Assembly: GCF_013283665.1 (NCBI RefSeq)
Contig: NZ_JABEKU010000002.1
Coordinates: 1 to 64,000, forward strand
Direction: 5' to 3'
Source of the DNA: Ensifer sesbaniae
GTDB taxonomy: Bacteria > Pseudomonadota > Alphaproteobacteria > Rhizobiales > Rhizobiaceae
DNA: 64,000 nucleotides
This document shows, piece by piece, positions 328-8,145 of the stretch (its first letter is position 1; each line of letters opens with the position of its first letter). Under the pieces are notes generated by a model. The model did no database searches. It was not told the origin of the DNA and saw only the letters and a program-made list of their open reading frames with translations. Made by a program: the position numbers and the translations under genes.

Positions 328-564
328 TCACCCGGCGCTGGTCGGGCGCCAGGTCTGTTGCGGGTTTCGCCAATCAATCCCCTCCAGCAGATAGGACATC
401 TGACCGGCGGTCAGCGCGATCGCACCATCCTCCGTCGCCGGCCAAATGAAGCGGCCGCGCTCGAGCCGCTTCGGATACAGCGATAGGCCGATCCCATCAT
501 GCCAAAGGGCCTTTATCAGTCGGCCGCTGCGACCGCGAAAGACGAAGACGTCACCCTTAAACGG
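328..564 (-). pseudogene. IS66-family tnpB, 3' part interrupted by the RIT element
   Basis: On the minus strand this stretch encodes the C-terminal two thirds of an IS66 TnpB accessory protein: GDVFVFRGRSGRLIK, then LERGRFIWP, ending GIDWRNPQQTWRPTSAG and TGA at 328-330. The N-terminal part lies at 3991-4107 on the other side of the RIT element. Joining the two and dropping one copy of the 6-bp duplication gives the continuous reading RDPF-KGDVFVFRG, which is the normal TnpB sequence at this place. The gene was therefore intact when the RIT element entered it. Confidence 0.85.
559..564. repeat. Target-site duplication, left copy (AAACGG)
   Basis: AAACGG occurs here and again at 3991-3996, directly outside the RIT insertion. 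Deleting one copy together with the insert restores the tnpB reading frame, which supports a 6-bp duplication made on insertion. Confidence 0.75.
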
Positions 565-584
565 TTATGTGGCGCGCCACATAA
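565..584. repeat. 20-bp perfect palindrome at the left RIT boundary
   Basis: The sequence reads identically on both strands and begins and ends with the TTATGTGG/CCACATAA motif of the RIT inverted repeats. It has no counterpart at the right end, where the duplication at 3991 directly follows the inverted repeat. Confidence 0.8.
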
Positions 585-590
585 CCCTAT

Positions 591-674
591 TTATGTGCCG
601 GGCGAGATTATGTGGCGGAGCCGCCCCGGCGCCAGCCGAGGCCTGCCTAATCTGGAATTCTCCGCCACATAATA
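591..674 (+). repeat. RIT inverted repeat, left arm (84 bp)
   Basis: It is the exact reverse complement of 3907-3990. Within the arm the motif TTATGTGSCG occurs at 591 and 609 and inverted near 663-672, a likely set of recombinase binding sites. The arm ends about 60 bases before the ritA start. Confidence 0.9.
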
Positions 675-732
675 TTTCGTGCCTCTTGGATGGGTGCGGG
701 ATCCCCCCGCGCCGCTATTCCGGAGGGACAAC

Positions 733-1972
733 ATGCTCGAGTTCTATTTCTCGTATCGTGGGGTGCTCAAGCGCCTACGTGGCGGTGCGCTTGGTGGCGA
801 GATGGATCGCTTCGCCGAGCATTTTCTTACGCTCGGTTATAAGCGAGCGTCCGCCAAGATTTACCTGAGCCGGATTGCGCGTTTTAGCCAGTTTGCCGCG
901 ACGCGCTGTGGCTCGATGCCAATCCATCAAGATGTCATCGACAGCTATTTGGGCACGTTTACTACAGATACTCCGCGCATCGGGGCCGTATCGGCTCTGG
1001 CACACGCACGGCGAGTGGCTCCGGAGCGGTTCATTATTTTCCGTTCCAAGTGAAGAGGCTGACCCGGATGCTCTGCTTCTGGCCTCCTTTTCGGACTATC
1101 TGCGCACGGTGCGGGGCCTGGAGCCGAAGACCCGCGAAGGTATTCTTCTGGGCGGTCGCCGCTTTTTGGATTGGTTCCGCCATCGCCACTCCGGCCAAAA
1201 TCTTGATGCGTTGACAGCCGAGCACGTGCTCGATGCTGTCGAGCATCGGCTGTCGCTATCGGCGACCTCCGGCACCCGCACGGCAGTGACTTCTCACATT
1301 CGAACATTCCTTCGGTTCTTATGTTGGGCTGGCCACCATCGCCAAGATCTTGCCCGCCTCGTCCCGAGGACGCCTTATTGGCGTTTGGCGCATCTGCCGC
1401 CGCGCCTTGCATGGGGTGACGTTCGGCGCGCAATCGATGCGATCGGCGCAACGACGCCGGTCGCTATCCGCGATCGAGCCGTCCTGCTGCTGCTCGCCAC
1501 CACGGGCATTCGCAACGGCGAGTTACGCGCCATTCGGCTGCAGGATATCGACTGGCGTACTGGCGAGGTTTTTATCCGGCGCACCAAGGGCAAGCGTGAT
1601 CGGGTGGTGCCACTCCTCGAGGAGACCGGCGCCGCACTCGTCGACTACATCCTGCGCGCTCGACCGAAGGTGGACAGTCCGTATCTGTTCCTGTCGTTCA
1701 CGCCGCCGGTGGGAGCGTTCAAGTCTGCGGCGCCTGTTTCAAGGATTGTGAGGAAGCGGTTGCGACATGGCGGGGTCGAACTCGGGCGGGTCGCAGGTGC
1801 ACATCTCCTGCGCCACAGCCTCGCCACCCAGCTTGTCGGGCAGCGAAGGCCAATCAACGAGGTCGCCGATCTTCTTGGTCACCGGAGCATCAACACAACG
1901 GCGCTGTACGTAAAGGTTGCGGCCTCGCAACTCGCCGAGGTCGCACTCCCCTTTCCGGGAGGCGCTGCATGA
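733..1972 (+). pseudogene. ritA: ritA, tyrosine recombinase with a single-base frameshift
   Basis: The first gene of the trio starts at the ATG at 733, five bases after GGAGGG (722-727). Frame 1 encodes the N-terminal SAM-like DNA-binding domain up to HARRVAPERF, then hits TGA at 1051. The rest is in frame 2: core-binding domain (LLLASFSDYLRTVRGLEPKT) and catalytic domain with Arg (ATTGIRNGELRAIR), Lys in TKGKRDR, HLLRHSLAT, LLGHRSINTTALY and the tyrosine nucleophile. Removing one T from the run 1037-1040 joins the frames as ERFIISVPSEEADP and gives a 412-residue protein of normal RitA length. A real mutation, a sequencing error or programmed slippage could each explain it. Confidence 0.85.
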
Positions 1973-2901
1973 CCGCCTTTGCCCGATTCCTCGGCGAGAA
2001 GGTCGAGCGTTACATCGAACTGCGCCACTCGCTCGGCTATGCCTTCAGCAAACAAGCCGGCACGTTGCGGGCTTTCGTCCGCTACGTTGAACGGGCTCAA
2101 CTCGATGCGCCCGCCACCCGGACGATGGCGCTGGACTTCGTCCTGTCGTTCGGCGGCGCCGCCAACAGCCGCGCCACTCGTCACGGCGTGCTCCGCCGAT
2201 TCTACGAGTATCTCGCTGTCTATGACGCCCAAACCGAAGCCTTGGAGCGCAGAGCCTTTCCCAGATCCAGGGCGATTCCGCCTCCACGTATCCTCAGCGA
2301 GGCAGAGTTGGCGTCGCTCATCGACGCATGCGCCCGCATTTCGCCAGGCATCGCTCTCAGGGGGCGGACTCTGGCGACGCTGATCGGACTGTTAGCAAGC
2401 TCGGGACTGCGATCGGGCGAAGTGGTTAGGCTTGATCGTTCCGATGTCGATCTGACCAACGGGGTTCTTCTGGTTCGGAAGACGAAGTTCCGCAAGGATC
2501 GTCTCGTTCCCGTTCACACGACGACCCAAACAGCGCTTCGCCGCTATGCCCGTGAGCGCGATGCAGCTTTTCCCAGCCCCAAGGACCAGGCCTTCTTCCT
2601 CAGCTCTCGTGGCAACCGCCTCTCGGCGACTGGCTTGCAAAGCGGATTTGCTCAGGTCCGCAAGCTCGCCGGCCTTGATGACGGCAAGCCGTTGCGGCCG
2701 CACGATCTGCGGCATCGGTTTGCCGTGACCCGCATGAGCCTTTGGCATCAACAACGCGCCAACGTCCAGGCGCTACTCCCGGTACTCGCCACCTATCTCG
2801 GCCACGCCAACTACAGTGACACAGCCTACTACCTCACTGGCTCGGTGGATCTTCTCGCCATGGCGGCGGAGCGCGCCTTCCTCGATGGAGGCGCAGCATG
2901 A
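1969..2901 (+). CDS. ritB: RitB tyrosine recombinase
   Basis: The second recombinase of the RIT trio has 310 residues. The start codon overlaps the ritA stop as ATGA. The N-terminal core-binding region (residues 1-100) is followed by the catalytic domain with Arg in SSGLRSGEVVRL, Lys in RKTKFRKDRLVPV, the box II motif PHDLRHRFAV, then YLGHANYSDTAYYLTGS with the nucleophilic tyrosine. It should cut and rejoin DNA through a 3'-phosphotyrosine intermediate, acting with RitA and RitC at the element ends. The division of labour among the three is not known. The gene appears intact. Confidence 0.92.
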   Translation: MTAFARFLGEKVERYIELRHSLGYAFSKQAGTLRAFVRYVERAQLDAPATRTMALDFVLSFGGAANSRATRHGVLRRFYEYLAVYDAQTEALERRAFPRSRAIPPPRILSEAELASLIDACARISPGIALRGRTLATLIGLLASSGLRSGEVVRLDRSDVDLTNGVLLVRKTKFRKDRLVPVHTTTQTALRRYARERDAAFPSPKDQAFFLSSRGNRLSATGLQSGFAQVRKLAGLDDGKPLRPHDLRHRFAVTRMSLWHQQRANVQALLPVLATYLGHANYSDTAYYLTGSVDLLAMAAERAFLDGGAA

Positions 2902-3905
2902 GTGAACACTTACTCCTGGCGCCGCTCCTGGAGTCCTACTTTCGTCGGCGCTTGACCAAACAACGCAACGCGACTCCCGCGACCATGGCCAGCTATCGCG
3001 ACGCGTTGCGCATGCTCATCCTCTTTGCCGCCACCCGCTTGCGGAAGAAGCCGGCGGCGTTGGTGCTCGAGGAGCTCGATCGAGACCTCATTCTCGCCTT
3101 TCTCGACGAACTCGAGGAGAAGCGGAACAACACCATCGCCACGCGCAACGCCCGCCTAGCTGCGATCCGATCCTTCTTCCACCATGTCGCCGCCGCCGAT
3201 CCCGCGTCCTTCGGTGTCGCCCAACGCGTGCTGACGATTCCCTTAAAACGGGCGCACATCGAGGTGACGCATCACCTCACCAAGGCCGAAGTGGACGCCC
3301 TCATTGAGGCTCCTAATCCAAGGACGTCCCGTGGTCGGCGTGACCGCACGTTTCTACTGTTTCTGGCACGGACCGGCGCGCGGGTCTCCGAAGCTACCGG
3401 CGTCAACGCAAACGACCTTCAGTTGGAACGGTCGCACCCGCAAGTGCTGCTGCGCGGCAAAGGGCGCAGAGACCGCGTCATCCCCATTCCTCTGGATCTG
3501 GCGAGAGCGCTGACAGCCTTGTTGGCCGAGCACGGAATCGCGAACCACGAGCCGCGACCGATATTCGTCGGCGCCCGCAACGAGCGCCTGACGCGCTTCG
3601 GAGCAACCCACATCGTGCGGCGTGCGGTGGCCCAGGCCGTGACCATCAGACCGGCCTTGGCCCAAAAGCCTATATCGCCGCACATCTTCCGACACTCACT
3701 GGCCATGAAGCTTCTCCAGTCGGGCGTTGACCTGTTGACGATCCAAGCCTGGCTCGGGCACGCACAGGTCGCCACAACCCATCGCTATGCCGCCGCCGAT
3801 GTCGAGATGATGCGTAAAGGTCTCGAGAAGGCTGGAGTCGCCGGCGATCTTGGCGTCCGTTTCCGACCAAATGACGCCGTGCTGCAACTACTGAACAGTA
3901 TCTGA
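2898..3905 (+). CDS. ritC: RitC tyrosine recombinase
   Basis: The third recombinase of the trio has 335 residues and overlaps ritB by ATGA. It has an N-terminal SAM-like domain with ATMASYRDALRMLI, a catalytic Arg in RTGARVSEATGV, Lys in GKGRRDRVIPI, then SPHIFRHSLAMKLLQSG and WLGHAQVATTHRYAAAD with the nucleophile. It resembles XerC/XerD-type recombinases. The coding sequence ends two bases before the right inverted repeat begins, so the element carries no room for cargo. All catalytic residues are present. Confidence 0.92.
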   Translation: MSEHLLLAPLLESYFRRRLTKQRNATPATMASYRDALRMLILFAATRLRKKPAALVLEELDRDLILAFLDELEEKRNNTIATRNARLAAIRSFFHHVAAADPASFGVAQRVLTIPLKRAHIEVTHHLTKAEVDALIEAPNPRTSRGRRDRTFLLFLARTGARVSEATGVNANDLQLERSHPQVLLRGKGRRDRVIPIPLDLARALTALLAEHGIANHEPRPIFVGARNERLTRFGATHIVRRAVAQAVTIRPALAQKPISPHIFRHSLAMKLLQSGVDLLTIQAWLGHAQVATTHRYAAADVEMMRKGLEKAGVAGDLGVRFRPNDAVLQLLNSI

Positions 3906-3906
3906 C

Positions 3907-3990
3907 TATTATGTGGCGGAGAATTCCAGATTAGGCAGGCCTCGGCTGGCGCCGGGGCGGCTCCGCCACATAATCTCGCCCGGCACATAA
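3907..3990 (-). repeat. RIT inverted repeat, right arm (84 bp)
   Basis: It is the exact reverse complement of 591-674. It begins right after the ritC stop codon and ends with CACATAA next to the right AAACGG duplication. Confidence 0.9.
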
Positions 3991-4107
3991 AAACGGATCG
4001 CGGCCGAGGCCCTCCTGCACCAGCAGTGCCAGGCCCTGCATGCCCTTGCGCATGTCGCAGTGACCGCTCGCGATCCACACCCGCACCCCGGAACTGATCG
4101 GGATCAT
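3991..4107 (-). pseudogene. IS66-family tnpB, 5' part
   Basis: On the minus strand it starts MIPISSGVRVWIASG, continues HCDMRKGMQGLALLVQEGLG and stops matching at RDPF, where the RIT element enters. The start overlaps the stop of the upstream tnpA as ATGA (4104-4107), the usual IS66 arrangement. The first six bases (3991-3996) are the right copy of the AAACGG target duplication. The remainder of the gene is at 328-558. Confidence 0.85.
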
Positions 4108-4439
4108 TTGAGCGCTCGCATGACCGCGGCTGCCAGCTCGCATGGCGCTGCTGCGCCAATCCTCACCCTCACGCCACTCGGGAAGTCACACACACGGCCG
4201 GCTCGGCCGCATCGCTGCTGGCAGGGCCAACGAGCTTGGCCGGCAGAAAGGCGGGCTCGGCCTCCTGTGCCAAAGCTAACCGCCGCCAGGTATAGATCAG
4301 GCCAGTCGCAACATCGAAACGGCGTGCGACTTCGCAAACCACCGCACCCGGCGAAAACCTCGGCCAGTATCTGGGCGCGATCTTCCAACGACCATCGCCG
4401 ACGCCGCTCCGGCCCCGTCAGCAAAACTGCATGTCCCAT
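4104..4439 (-). pseudogene. IS66-family tnpA, frameshifted
   Basis: It opens MGHAVLLTGPERRRRWSLEDR and AQILAEV, the IS66 TnpA N-terminus. The expected HTH segment (EVARRFDV-type, then ATGLIYTWRR) is only found by changing frame inside the gene, and the last residues IGAAAP...MRALK are back in frame before the ATGA overlap with tnpB. At least two indels have accumulated, so this accessory gene is dead independently of the RIT insertion. A 9-bp inverted repeat (4454-4462 and 4469-4477) lies just upstream. Confidence 0.7.
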
Positions 4440-5929: not shown

Positions 5930-8145
5930 GTCGAAACCTCGTTGTGGGCCGTTCCTTCTGTTTCCACCGTCTGCATCCAGCGACCGCGGAACAGCGTCTG
6001 ATCGACACGCTCCACGTATCTGGCCGTGGCTGCCGAGACAGCACCGGATGCCTCATCCGATCCGAGCATTTGCAAGACGGGCAGCCAATAGGATTCGTAG
6101 CCCCTGCGGCTCAGAACCAAGGCAAGATCCAGCCCCTTGAGAGACGCGCCGAGATAGGTGGGCGAAACACCGGTATCGTCGAGAAGTGCTGCGCGCGGCA
6201 TGATGCAGCATTCAAGCGAGGCGGTCTGAACCCGCGTCAGCTTCAGGCGGTTCACGGCACCGACCGGATAACCGGCATAGCGGCTCGACTGAAGATGATC
6301 GGCACGGTCGAGCGAGGTGCTGCCTGCCCAACGGATCGAGTGATCTTCATAGGCAAGCGTCGGCGATATGATGCTTCCGCTCTTTGTCTCGTAGTTGGCA
6401 ACAAGTGTCTGATACCAACCCGGATTGGCGGGCGTAAGCGACGCTGACAGCAGGATGACAGTCTCATTGTCCATTGCCTGCGCCGCAGTCCGCGCCAGAT
6501 CGCTGGCATCGCCTGAACCTTCGACGGACACCAGACGTAGCGGCAAACGATAAAATTCCGCAAGCTGGCGAATACGGGCGGCGCGCCGGCGAAATTGTTC
6601 CGATTGCTGAACGAGCACGATCGGCGCTTGCCGCGTATACGGATCAAGCGCCAGAAGGCCCAACAGCGGGGCGAAATCCTCCTCGGCGTCTCCCACGGCG
6701 ACAAGGATTGCCGCCCCCACGGCCTCACCGAAACGGCCTACATCGATGACGGTTTCGATCGTTGGTGCGTTCGCGCGCGCAGCGGTGAGGAACGGGACGA
6801 TCTGCCGATCGACGATTTCAGGCAAGGCCCAACTGGTCGGGTCGATGGCGTTCAACAGTCGTAACGCCGCATGTCTTGCCGACAGCCGTGTCGGATGAAG
6901 CGGCATATAGGCGCGGCGGGAATCGCGAAGCGTCACTTCGAGGTAAAGCGGGGCCGCCGGATCGCCGACGAGGCCATCCGCGAAAGCGATGAAACCGTGC
7001 GAACGGCGATGTCCGGATATTGCGCTCTTGAATTCCGGCCGGTCCGCAAACGCATCTTCGACGTCCAGCCGTTCGGTGCGCGTCCAGGTTCCATCAAGAC
7101 GCGCCTCGGCGCGCCCGCGCCGCAGCCGAACGCTTTGTACGTGATCGTCAGGATCGAGCATCCAGCCGGAGATTAGAAAGGCGCCCTCGTCGCCCTGATA
7201 GAGCGAGTCGACGCCGAGCCGGACCGGAAGTGGGAGACTTGAGATCGTTTCTGTGCCGTCGAAGCCGTTGGCCGCTTCGCGCAGGCGTAACAACACTTGC
7301 GGCGAGCTTTGGCTTTGAAGCAGCATCGCGCGAATATGTCCCGGCGTCTCAAGCGGCCCGGCAACGAACTTGCGCTCGTGAACCGCCAAGTAGCGCCAGG
7401 CGGTGCGGCCGCGATAGAATATGCCCTGGATATCGCGGGCTCGCGGCAGGTCGTCCGCCGATAGCAGGCCCAAAAAGCCGACGGCATCTTCCGGTGCGTC
7501 GTTACGCGGGAAAACCGCAACGTTGCAATCGGCGAGCGACGTGTCCTCGGCCCTGACGACGGCTCGGCACACGCCGGCGGCCATGTCATGCGCCCAGCCC
7601 TTGAGCGCGATCGCATCGTCGTGGCTTTCGCCGAGCAGCTCGATATAGCCGTCTCTTGCGATTCCCGCCTTGAGCAGAGTTGTGACCGCGCCAAGCTTCC
7701 GCGGATCGAGCGGCGGCTTCATCAATACGTCCACCAAGCGGCCGAGCACGTGGACGACCTGTGGGCCGGCGAGCTCCTTCAGCATCGCGGCAACATCTCC
7801 GGTCGACACGGTGCGGGGCGCAACGATGTAGCGTTTACCGCCGCCGTCCTTTCCGAAGCGCAGCGTTGTCGGCATGCTGCTTTCGCGATCGACAGGGACA
7901 AGTGCTGCGAAACCGTGTGTGGCGGAACCTTGCGATGCGGCAAGTCGCCAGCCGATAATGGAGGCGATCGCCTGGATCGTCGCGTCTTCGTCGATCTCCA
8001 CCGGCAATTGATCTGCCAATGGGCCACCGGCGCCGATCACCAGCAACAGCGTTTCATCGATCGGGCACACCACGACCCGTCCGCTGCGCATGATCCGGGC
8101 AAGCGGTGCGGGGGTCGGCGAAAGGGAAAGCTCCGAATTGGGCAT
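5926..8145 (-). CDS. wgeF: Large GT2-related protein, WgeF (ExpE6)-like
   Basis: A 739-residue protein of the wge operon. The middle (about residues 310-400) holds a GW.LDP domain (FLISGWMLDPDDHVQSVRLR) related to one in WgeB and WgeE. The C-terminal third resembles a GT2 fold in length and layout (ILVAVGD, VILLSASLTPANPGWYQTLV, SRRGYESYWLP) but lacks a clear DxD metal motif; the expected D of the acceptor strand is replaced by LSASL. It may be a degenerate transferase with a scaffold or chain-length role. It starts 10 bases after wgeE and overlaps wgeG. The assignment comes from position and size relative to the S. meliloti cluster. Confidence 0.65.
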   Translation of the reverse strand: MPNSELSLSPTPAPLARIMRSGRVVVCPIDETLLLVIGAGGPLADQLPVEIDEDATIQAIASIIGWRLAASQGSATHGFAALVPVDRESSMPTTLRFGKDGGGKRYIVAPRTVSTGDVAAMLKELAGPQVVHVLGRLVDVLMKPPLDPRKLGAVTTLLKAGIARDGYIELLGESHDDAIALKGWAHDMAAGVCRAVVRAEDTSLADCNVAVFPRNDAPEDAVGFLGLLSADDLPRARDIQGIFYRGRTAWRYLAVHERKFVAGPLETPGHIRAMLLQSQSSPQVLLRLREAANGFDGTETISSLPLPVRLGVDSLYQGDEGAFLISGWMLDPDDHVQSVRLRRGRAEARLDGTWTRTERLDVEDAFADRPEFKSAISGHRRSHGFIAFADGLVGDPAAPLYLEVTLRDSRRAYMPLHPTRLSARHAALRLLNAIDPTSWALPEIVDRQIVPFLTAARANAPTIETVIDVGRFGEAVGAAILVAVGDAEEDFAPLLGLLALDPYTRQAPIVLVQQSEQFRRRAARIRQLAEFYRLPLRLVSVEGSGDASDLARTAAQAMDNETVILLSASLTPANPGWYQTLVANYETKSGSIISPTLAYEDHSIRWAGSTSLDRADHLQSSRYAGYPVGAVNRLKLTRVQTASLECCIMPRAALLDDTGVSPTYLGASLKGLDLALVLSRRGYESYWLPVLQMLGSDEASGAVSAATARYVERVDQTLFRGRWMQTVETEGTAHNEVST

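Follow-up and report, generated by a model that had tools for sequence, protein, structure and literature searches.

How does a RIT element enter an IS66 transposon gene, and does a six-base repeat at its borders record a duplication of the target? The question is raised by a 64,000-nucleotide stretch of contig NZ_JABEKU010000002.1 of Ensifer sesbaniae (assembly GCF_013283665.1; hereafter the window), in which a RIT element, with three tyrosine recombinase genes on the + strand flanked by inverted repeats, interrupts an IS66 tnpB gene. A preliminary description of this DNA treated positions 565–3990 as a single element, pointed to an AAACGG repeat around it and offered two mechanisms, a cut-and-insert process with a staggered 6-bp product or insertion at a 6-bp crossover region by tyrosine recombination. 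From a comparison with related copies we consider it probable that the RIT unit comprises the body, a 6-bp spacer and a 20-bp palindrome, and that it inserts by tyrosine recombination at the 6-bp crossover spacer, i.e. the second of these mechanisms. The first does not agree with the family, since 14 of 24 outer spacer pairs are unequal. The layout, the target site, the empty sites, the unequal spacers of the relatives and one precise inversion can all be read from the sequences.

The repeat itself is present at both borders (Table 1). When 565–3996 are removed and 1–564 are joined to 3997 onward, one open TnpB frame results, which reads GRDPFKGDVFVFRG, as had been proposed. The intervening DNA, however, is not a single element, but consists of the palindrome, the spacer CCCTAT and the RIT body. 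In the sense of tnpB the order is the 5' part of tnpB ending in Asp, spacer a, the body (in either orientation), spacer b, the palindrome, spacer c and the 3' part of tnpB. In the window a and c are equal and native, while b differs. Palindrome, inner spacer and site specificity had no place in the earlier account. The view that the 26 bp on the left form a variable element end was dropped, because the palindrome and both 6-mers recur in other copies.

The proposed search for an uninterrupted tnpB led to a same-genus genome with three intact copies, all identical (L124, L128 and L130 in our numbering of loci). They read GATCCGTTTAAGGG, carry AAACGG once and match the two 60-bp flanks with identities of 0.98 and 1.00. 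The 3' flank is matched by 12 plasmid records, and in seven of these, judged by coordinates only, the 5' and 3' flank matches overlap by exactly 6 bp (match pairs H61/H91, H62/H92, H64/H99, H67/H98, H70/H97, H71/H95 and H72/H96); the plasmid record CP118611 is, from its coordinates, apparently the genome of L124. As to the other five records, the flanks lie far apart in two from S. numidicum and in CP141215, CP021807 is the RIT copy L115, and CP101520 matches partially. A search with PF05717 (TnpB_IS66), which has both its window matches on the minus strand, shows that IS66 copies are numerous.

To define the site across the family we collected related loci. The plasmid search matched 62 records, 39 of which cover at least 80% of the element, and 27 regions that belong to the family or come close to it were fetched; genome sources gave 56 loci, many of them partial, and further genome searches gave loci for the best matches only. 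The tip search required at least 126 aligned bases, so that short remnants are uncounted, and the tip contexts comprise 100 distinct sequences of 60 bp, shorter ones at contig ends having been removed. IS66 tnpB is met in 85 of the 100 contexts, 54 times directly at its 5' half and 31 times via a 6-mer and the palindrome at its 3' half. The others lead to an IS91/integrase element (7), to a sequence ending in TGCAGA (2), to the palindrome without a following tnpB match (2) or elsewhere (4). The break falls exactly at the codons Asp|Pro-Phe/Tyr in 80 of the 85 tnpB contexts. On a profile derived from 46 windows of intact tnpB, the 5' side breaks at position 36–37 in 51 of 54 contexts and the 3' side starts at 35–37 in 29 of 31. 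The native six bases in matched intact sites mostly read Pro-Phe or Pro-Tyr, with Pro-His and Pro-Met found as well. The arrangement is also polar: 31 of the 33 palindrome contexts lead to the 3' part of tnpB, two have no tnpB match and none leads to the 5' part, and not a single tip leads directly to the 3' part.

Complete copies (n = 24) were defined as having exactly one palindrome side and one side starting with [AG]TC after the spacer. Left out were, for example, copies with the tnpB 5' part on both sides (L065, L098, L354), the palindrome on both sides (L060/L211), another element at one tip (L038, L100, L105, L109, L113, L356) or a 5-bp spacer on one side (L101–L104, L106, L107). All three spacers can be read in each of the 24, and no two share the same flanks and spacers, but the number of independent insertions is lower, as L315 and L341 duplicate one locus. 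Their bodies lie in the two orientations at 12:12. Read away from the Asp side of tnpB or from the palindrome, all 72 spacers of these copies begin with CC, and so do the tip-side spacers in 94 of the 100 contexts. These shared starts suggest one role for the Asp side together with the two palindrome sides, and the other for the body tips and the 3' side of tnpB.

If the AAACGG repeat were a true target duplication, i.e. a 6-bp staggered cut that was filled in so that both copies stem from the target, every insertion would start with equal outer 6-mers, and unequal pairs elsewhere would be later changes. Comparison with the other copies, which the preliminary description had named as the test of its duplication, revealed equal outer spacers in 10 of the 24 complete copies and unequal ones in 14. 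The difference is one base in eight copies (L050, L054, L094, L115, L312, L315, L316, L341), two in L281 and three in five (L046, L092, L096, L112, L355), so that six of the 14 differ by two or three bases. Hence, the repeat is genuine in the window copy but not constant across the family, for which the duplication is unsupported. It does explain the window, where both outer copies are native and the inner one differs, and the many single-base differences (8 of 14). Outer equality also exceeds the shuffled expectation (10 versus 4.5), yet the outer–inner pairs are just as enriched (a = b, 9 versus 3.4; b = c, 8 versus 3.1); the shuffle sets one column against another and ignores host and target kinship, which raises all three equalities. 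Since duplication would make the a = c equality special, this result disfavours it, and outer equality was discarded as proof of duplication after the shuffle control. The patterns in the order a-b-c, where the same letter denotes equal spacers, are tyt (6), tyx (5), tty (5), tyy (4) and ttt (4).

The argument against duplication is carried by the three-base differences beside native flanks. Both 60-bp flanks of L046, L096, L112 and L355 match one native IS66 type, and still a and c are three bases apart; in L281 they are two bases apart. Furthermore, the matched open frames between the tips are the three recombinases in RIT order, and tyrosine recombinases are not known to produce duplications by fill-in. 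Taken together, a target duplication is unlikely. In eight unequal copies the native site could be assigned (mean flank identity of at least 0.85); a is native in seven (L046, L094, L096, L112, L115, L281, L355) and c in one (L050), a weak bias (P = 0.035, one-sided); three of the eight (L050, L094, L115) are one-base cases. For L096 the best flank match reads CCGTAT, whereas the next two read CCTTAT, which is its a. L316 fits a at a flank identity of 0.82, and no native site could be assigned for L054, L092, L312, L315 and L341.

Alternatively, the palindrome could be a resident mini-element or scar, and the body alone would move into sites that hold it. Body-only recombination does exist, because the body alone is inverted in L341 relative to L315 (see below), and at L265 a palindrome adjoins another element, with no RIT body found there. 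However, the palindrome pattern occurs in only two of 394 family genomes, both times next to a RIT, when searched as a strict 20-bp pattern that misses variant forms; a common scar was dropped on this ground. The intact tnpB sites examined have no palindrome. Moreover, palindrome variants largely track the tree of the elements and not the target type: the TTAGG form is found in L007, L110, L112 and L115 across three IS66 target types, and in L357, a relative from Methylovirgula, tip and palindrome both start with ATATG. The palindromes of L215, L218 and L224 belong to RIT copies with another element between body and palindrome (L224 is the L109 locus by coordinates). Finally, a and b are inverted with respect to each other, so that a lone body could flip, but not excise. 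A resident palindrome is therefore unlikely, and the palindrome appears to belong to the mobile element.

A hint at the place of strand crossing comes from L315 and L341, duplicated loci that lie about 23 kb apart in the same genome, each with all three genes open. Their bodies are identical over 3405 bp and yet inverted from tip to tip. Of 1500 bp on the palindrome side, 1499 agree, and the one mismatch is the spacer base that adjoins the tip; the opposite side is identical for its first 581 bp and loses its likeness at about 584. The changed base turns b from CCGCAT into CCGCAC, or the reverse, and CCGCAC is spacer a in both loci. L341 thus has a = b, as the crossover model predicts after an inversion: if strands cross at both ends of the 6-bp spacers a and b, heteroduplex would arise at both, and replication would yield a = b in each daughter. 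The pair fits a crossover inside the 6-bp spacer by tyrosine recombinases. We give little credence to inversion by RecA between the terminal repeats (84–87 bp), with mutation or recombination between IS66 copies accounting for the spacer differences, even if these repeats are long and nearly perfect, IS66 copies are many and most unequal outer pairs are one base apart. The bodies of L315 and L341 are identical to the last base; as the first mismatch between their terminal repeats lies 38 bp from the tip, such a crossover would be confined to the outer 37 bp, and it would leave b unchanged and not convert it to a. Moreover, the three-base changes of c in L046, L096, L112 and L355 are hemmed into 6 bp, with native flank on one side and the palindrome on the other.

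The recombination model can be formulated as a core site of the type 5' arm-CCNNNN-3' arm. The 5' arm would be provided by one of the two palindrome sides or by tnpB as far as the Asp codon, and the 3' arm by either body tip or by tnpB downstream of the spacer. As a and c are in direct orientation, recombination between them would release a circle of body and palindrome and restore tnpB, whereas recombination between the inverted a and b would flip the body. Integration would place a body tip next to the 5' part of tnpB and the palindrome next to the 3' part, with the body either way round. The outer 6-mers would agree whenever the target has the same six bases as the circle; this may be the case in the window (a = c = CCGTTT) and would be likely for moves among copies of one IS66 type. 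The window b, CCCTAT, which is found among native sites of the L110 type, may then be the trace of a tnpB of another type. We tentatively extend this to a two-body transposon, a proposal that we would place slightly short of probable: the body would have two equivalent 3' arms and the palindrome two equivalent 5' arms, so that the circle has two interchangeable attachment sites, inserts in either orientation, can invert in place, keeps, as a travel log, six bases of every site it has left, and exchanges strands with a bias like that of SE (strand-biased circularizing integrative elements) and Tn554.

Besides the lone palindrome of L265, the strict palindrome search and the weakness of the a-native bias, several points speak against the recombination model. 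We infer the circle, the roles of the arms, the enzyme chemistry and the movement; no circle, junction or transposition was observed. One-base differences make up eight of the 14 unequal pairs and could be produced by later mutation after a true duplication, and the window state, a = c = native, is explained equally well by duplication. L050 runs contrary to strict polarity, its c being native and its a one base off, and L092 is degraded. The changed base of L341 could be an independent mutation. The CC starts may only mirror the Pro codon of the target. The R. tropici/freirei group has a TTATG palindrome within the TTAGG clade. Lastly, judged by a rough rule on gene length, no more than 17 of the 42 distinct bodies, those of the L046 and L341 types among them, have all three genes open, so many copies are dead and may have drifted.

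The genes of the window copy identify it as a RIT element. They run in the same direction and overlap by 4 bp each (1969–1972 and 2898–2901), PF00589 matched in all three, and the body of 3400 bp with terminal inverted repeats of 84 bp each is in keeping with the RIT length of about 3.5 kb. An alignment of the RitA fragment, RitB and RitC revealed the shared pattern R, K, H-x-x-R, H, Y, with invariant R213, K238, H310, R313, H336 and Y345 (numbering of the RitA fragment). The catalytic roles of these residues in tyrosine recombinases are well established. The trio is not intact, however, because the longest open frame of ritA falls under the length rule. This bears on the activity of the window copy, not on its family membership: with its split ritA it probably cannot move alone, and it is the only full RIT copy found in its genome. 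RitA with two core-binding domains and RitC with an extra C-terminal helix are described in the accessible part of PMC8138268.

Table 1. Coordinates of the RIT element and the interrupted IS66 tnpB in the window
Feature	Position	Strand	Basis
Interrupted IS66 tnpB, 3' part	358..558	-	PF05717 match 358-573 (profile 28-100); joined frame
Outer spacer c = AAACGG (tnpB sense CCGTTT), between palindrome and tnpB 3' part	559..564	.	
Perfect 20-bp palindrome TTATGTGGCGCGCCACATAA, taken as part of the mobile unit	565..584	.	
Inner spacer b = CCCTAT, palindrome/body boundary	585..590	.	
RIT body, tip to tip, 3400 bp	591..3990	+	Tips TTATGTGCCG at both ends
Left terminal inverted repeat, holding an inverted pair of TTATGTGGCGGAG	591..674	.	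Repeat comparison
ritA, split over two frames, not intact	679..1972	+	Open frames 679-1053 and 875-1972; PF00589 in second frame
ritB tyrosine recombinase, 310 aa	1969..2901	+	Open frame, PF00589
ritC tyrosine recombinase, 335 aa	2898..3905	+	Open frame, PF00589
Right terminal inverted repeat	3907..3990	.	Repeat comparison
Outer spacer a = AAACGG (tnpB sense CCGTTT), equals native six bases of target	3991..3996	.	
Interrupted IS66 tnpB, 5' part, ends in codon GAT (Asp)	3997..4107	-	PF05717 match 3991-4083 (profile 2-32); joined frame; start codon by eye

Each terminal repeat contains an inverted pair of TTATGTGGCGGAG (607–620 and 660–673, mirrored at 3961–3974 and 3908–3921), the outer site lying about 17 bp inward of the tip. 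A TTATGTG or TTTTGTG motif recurs by eye in this region, on at least one end, in the 33 listed bodies. The inner pairs are possible accessory binding sites of the recombinases. Outside the interrupted tnpB, IS66 TnpA-like frames are located at 145–360 and 4104–4439 in opposite orientation, with matches below the curated cut-offs; the left one, on the + strand, adjoins the 3' end of tnpB. This arrangement suggests that the host IS66 has itself undergone rearrangement or truncation.

Some incomplete copies show further rearrangements. Inverted tnpB 5' halves flank the RIT body on both sides in L065, L098 and L354 (also in L058), and palindrome plus tnpB 3' part do so in L060/L211; the two arrangements are what one would expect as reciprocal outcomes if copies in opposite orientation recombine. 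A further element, about 2.5 kb long, carries a recombinase-like gene and, behind it, an IS91-like transposase gene (named via the annotation of similar loci); it appears to lie between body and palindrome, where it borders the RIT spacer (L218:5747–8303; tips of L038, L100, L105, L109, L113 and L356; L040, L285). It has the ends TTGGACTAACC... and ...CGCTCTGCA and looks as if it targeted the RIT junction itself. In S. fredii NGR234 (L108/L218, pNGR234a, about 229921–236750) a RIT lies within a RIT, a second recombinase trio in opposite orientation being found inside the ritC region of a member of the window family.

The layout extends to a distant RIT in R. leguminosarum (L359; 39% RitB identity), where the tip TTATGCCG is followed by 6 bp, by the 20-bp palindrome TTATGCCGCGCGCGGCATAA and by another 6 bp. 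Its outer spacers, ACGGCA and ACCTGC, differ at three bases, and the joined flanks read through with either. We take these flanks to be the C-terminus of IS66 TnpC, and the annotation of the record places an IS66 family transposase across this end; the layout of the window family would here sit in tnpC. For the betaproteobacterial trios L358 (Aromatoleum) and L360 (C. taiwanensis) no clear succession of tip, spacer and palindrome was found; L360 has a 20-bp palindrome at 6081, and the trio of L358 is broken by a copy of ISAzo6. Accordingly, the layout is documented here within the Alphaproteobacteria.

Among known systems, the coupling sequences of Tn916-type elements are alike in that unequal 6-bp flanks are carried by the circle, but these elements use a single integrase with Xis and have low site specificity. 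SE and Tn554 resemble the window family in their tyrosine recombinases, 6 bp per junction and preferred targets, according to the accessible part of PMC10214605. There, one outer 6-mer comes from the target and the other is carried in; the corresponding count here is seven of eight, with one opposite case and three of the eight differing by one base only, so that a strand-biased exchange is only suggestive. The gene sets differ by description (IntA-Tfp-IntB-Srap or TnpA-TnpB-TnpC versus the RIT trio), and that part of the source does not mention a palindromic module or an in-place inversion. GInt islands, compared by description only, share three recombinase-type genes in a row with RIT elements, but have four conserved genes and reside on genomic islands (PMC10214605).

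The accessible parts of PMC2864759 and PMC3414803 show that RIT elements, in Cupriavidus metallidurans among others, are already known from print, together with IS66 neighbours and with ends that are uncertain. The same sources report three overlapping tyrosine recombinase genes in the order A-B-C, a length of about 3.5 kb and, in CH34, an IS66 gene interrupted by a RIT, all as found here; for the ends, an inverted repeat given as 28-9 bp and an overlapping palindromic sequence are described (PMC3414803). Beyond these accounts, as far as they are accessible, go the defined tips, the separate 20-bp palindrome with 6-bp spacers, the fixed codon site in tnpB, the empty sites and the in-place inversion. 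Among the papers listed from the open-licence PMC literature, in the parts accessible, no description of the palindrome–spacer layout or of the tnpB codon site was found; Ricker et al. 2013 is outside this scope and may hold part of it. In the accessible part of PMC10214605, a table from 2023 gives target specificity, empty site and movement of RIT elements as not tested.

In the present family the ends and the empty sites are defined, and the target is fixed within a transposon gene that is widespread. The natural products of the family, the unequal spacers and one exact inversion, point to the place where strands cross. The movement of RIT elements is thereby made testable. If the model is true, it would also account for the presence of the palindrome in complete copies, since excision and re-insertion would otherwise lack a second 5' arm.

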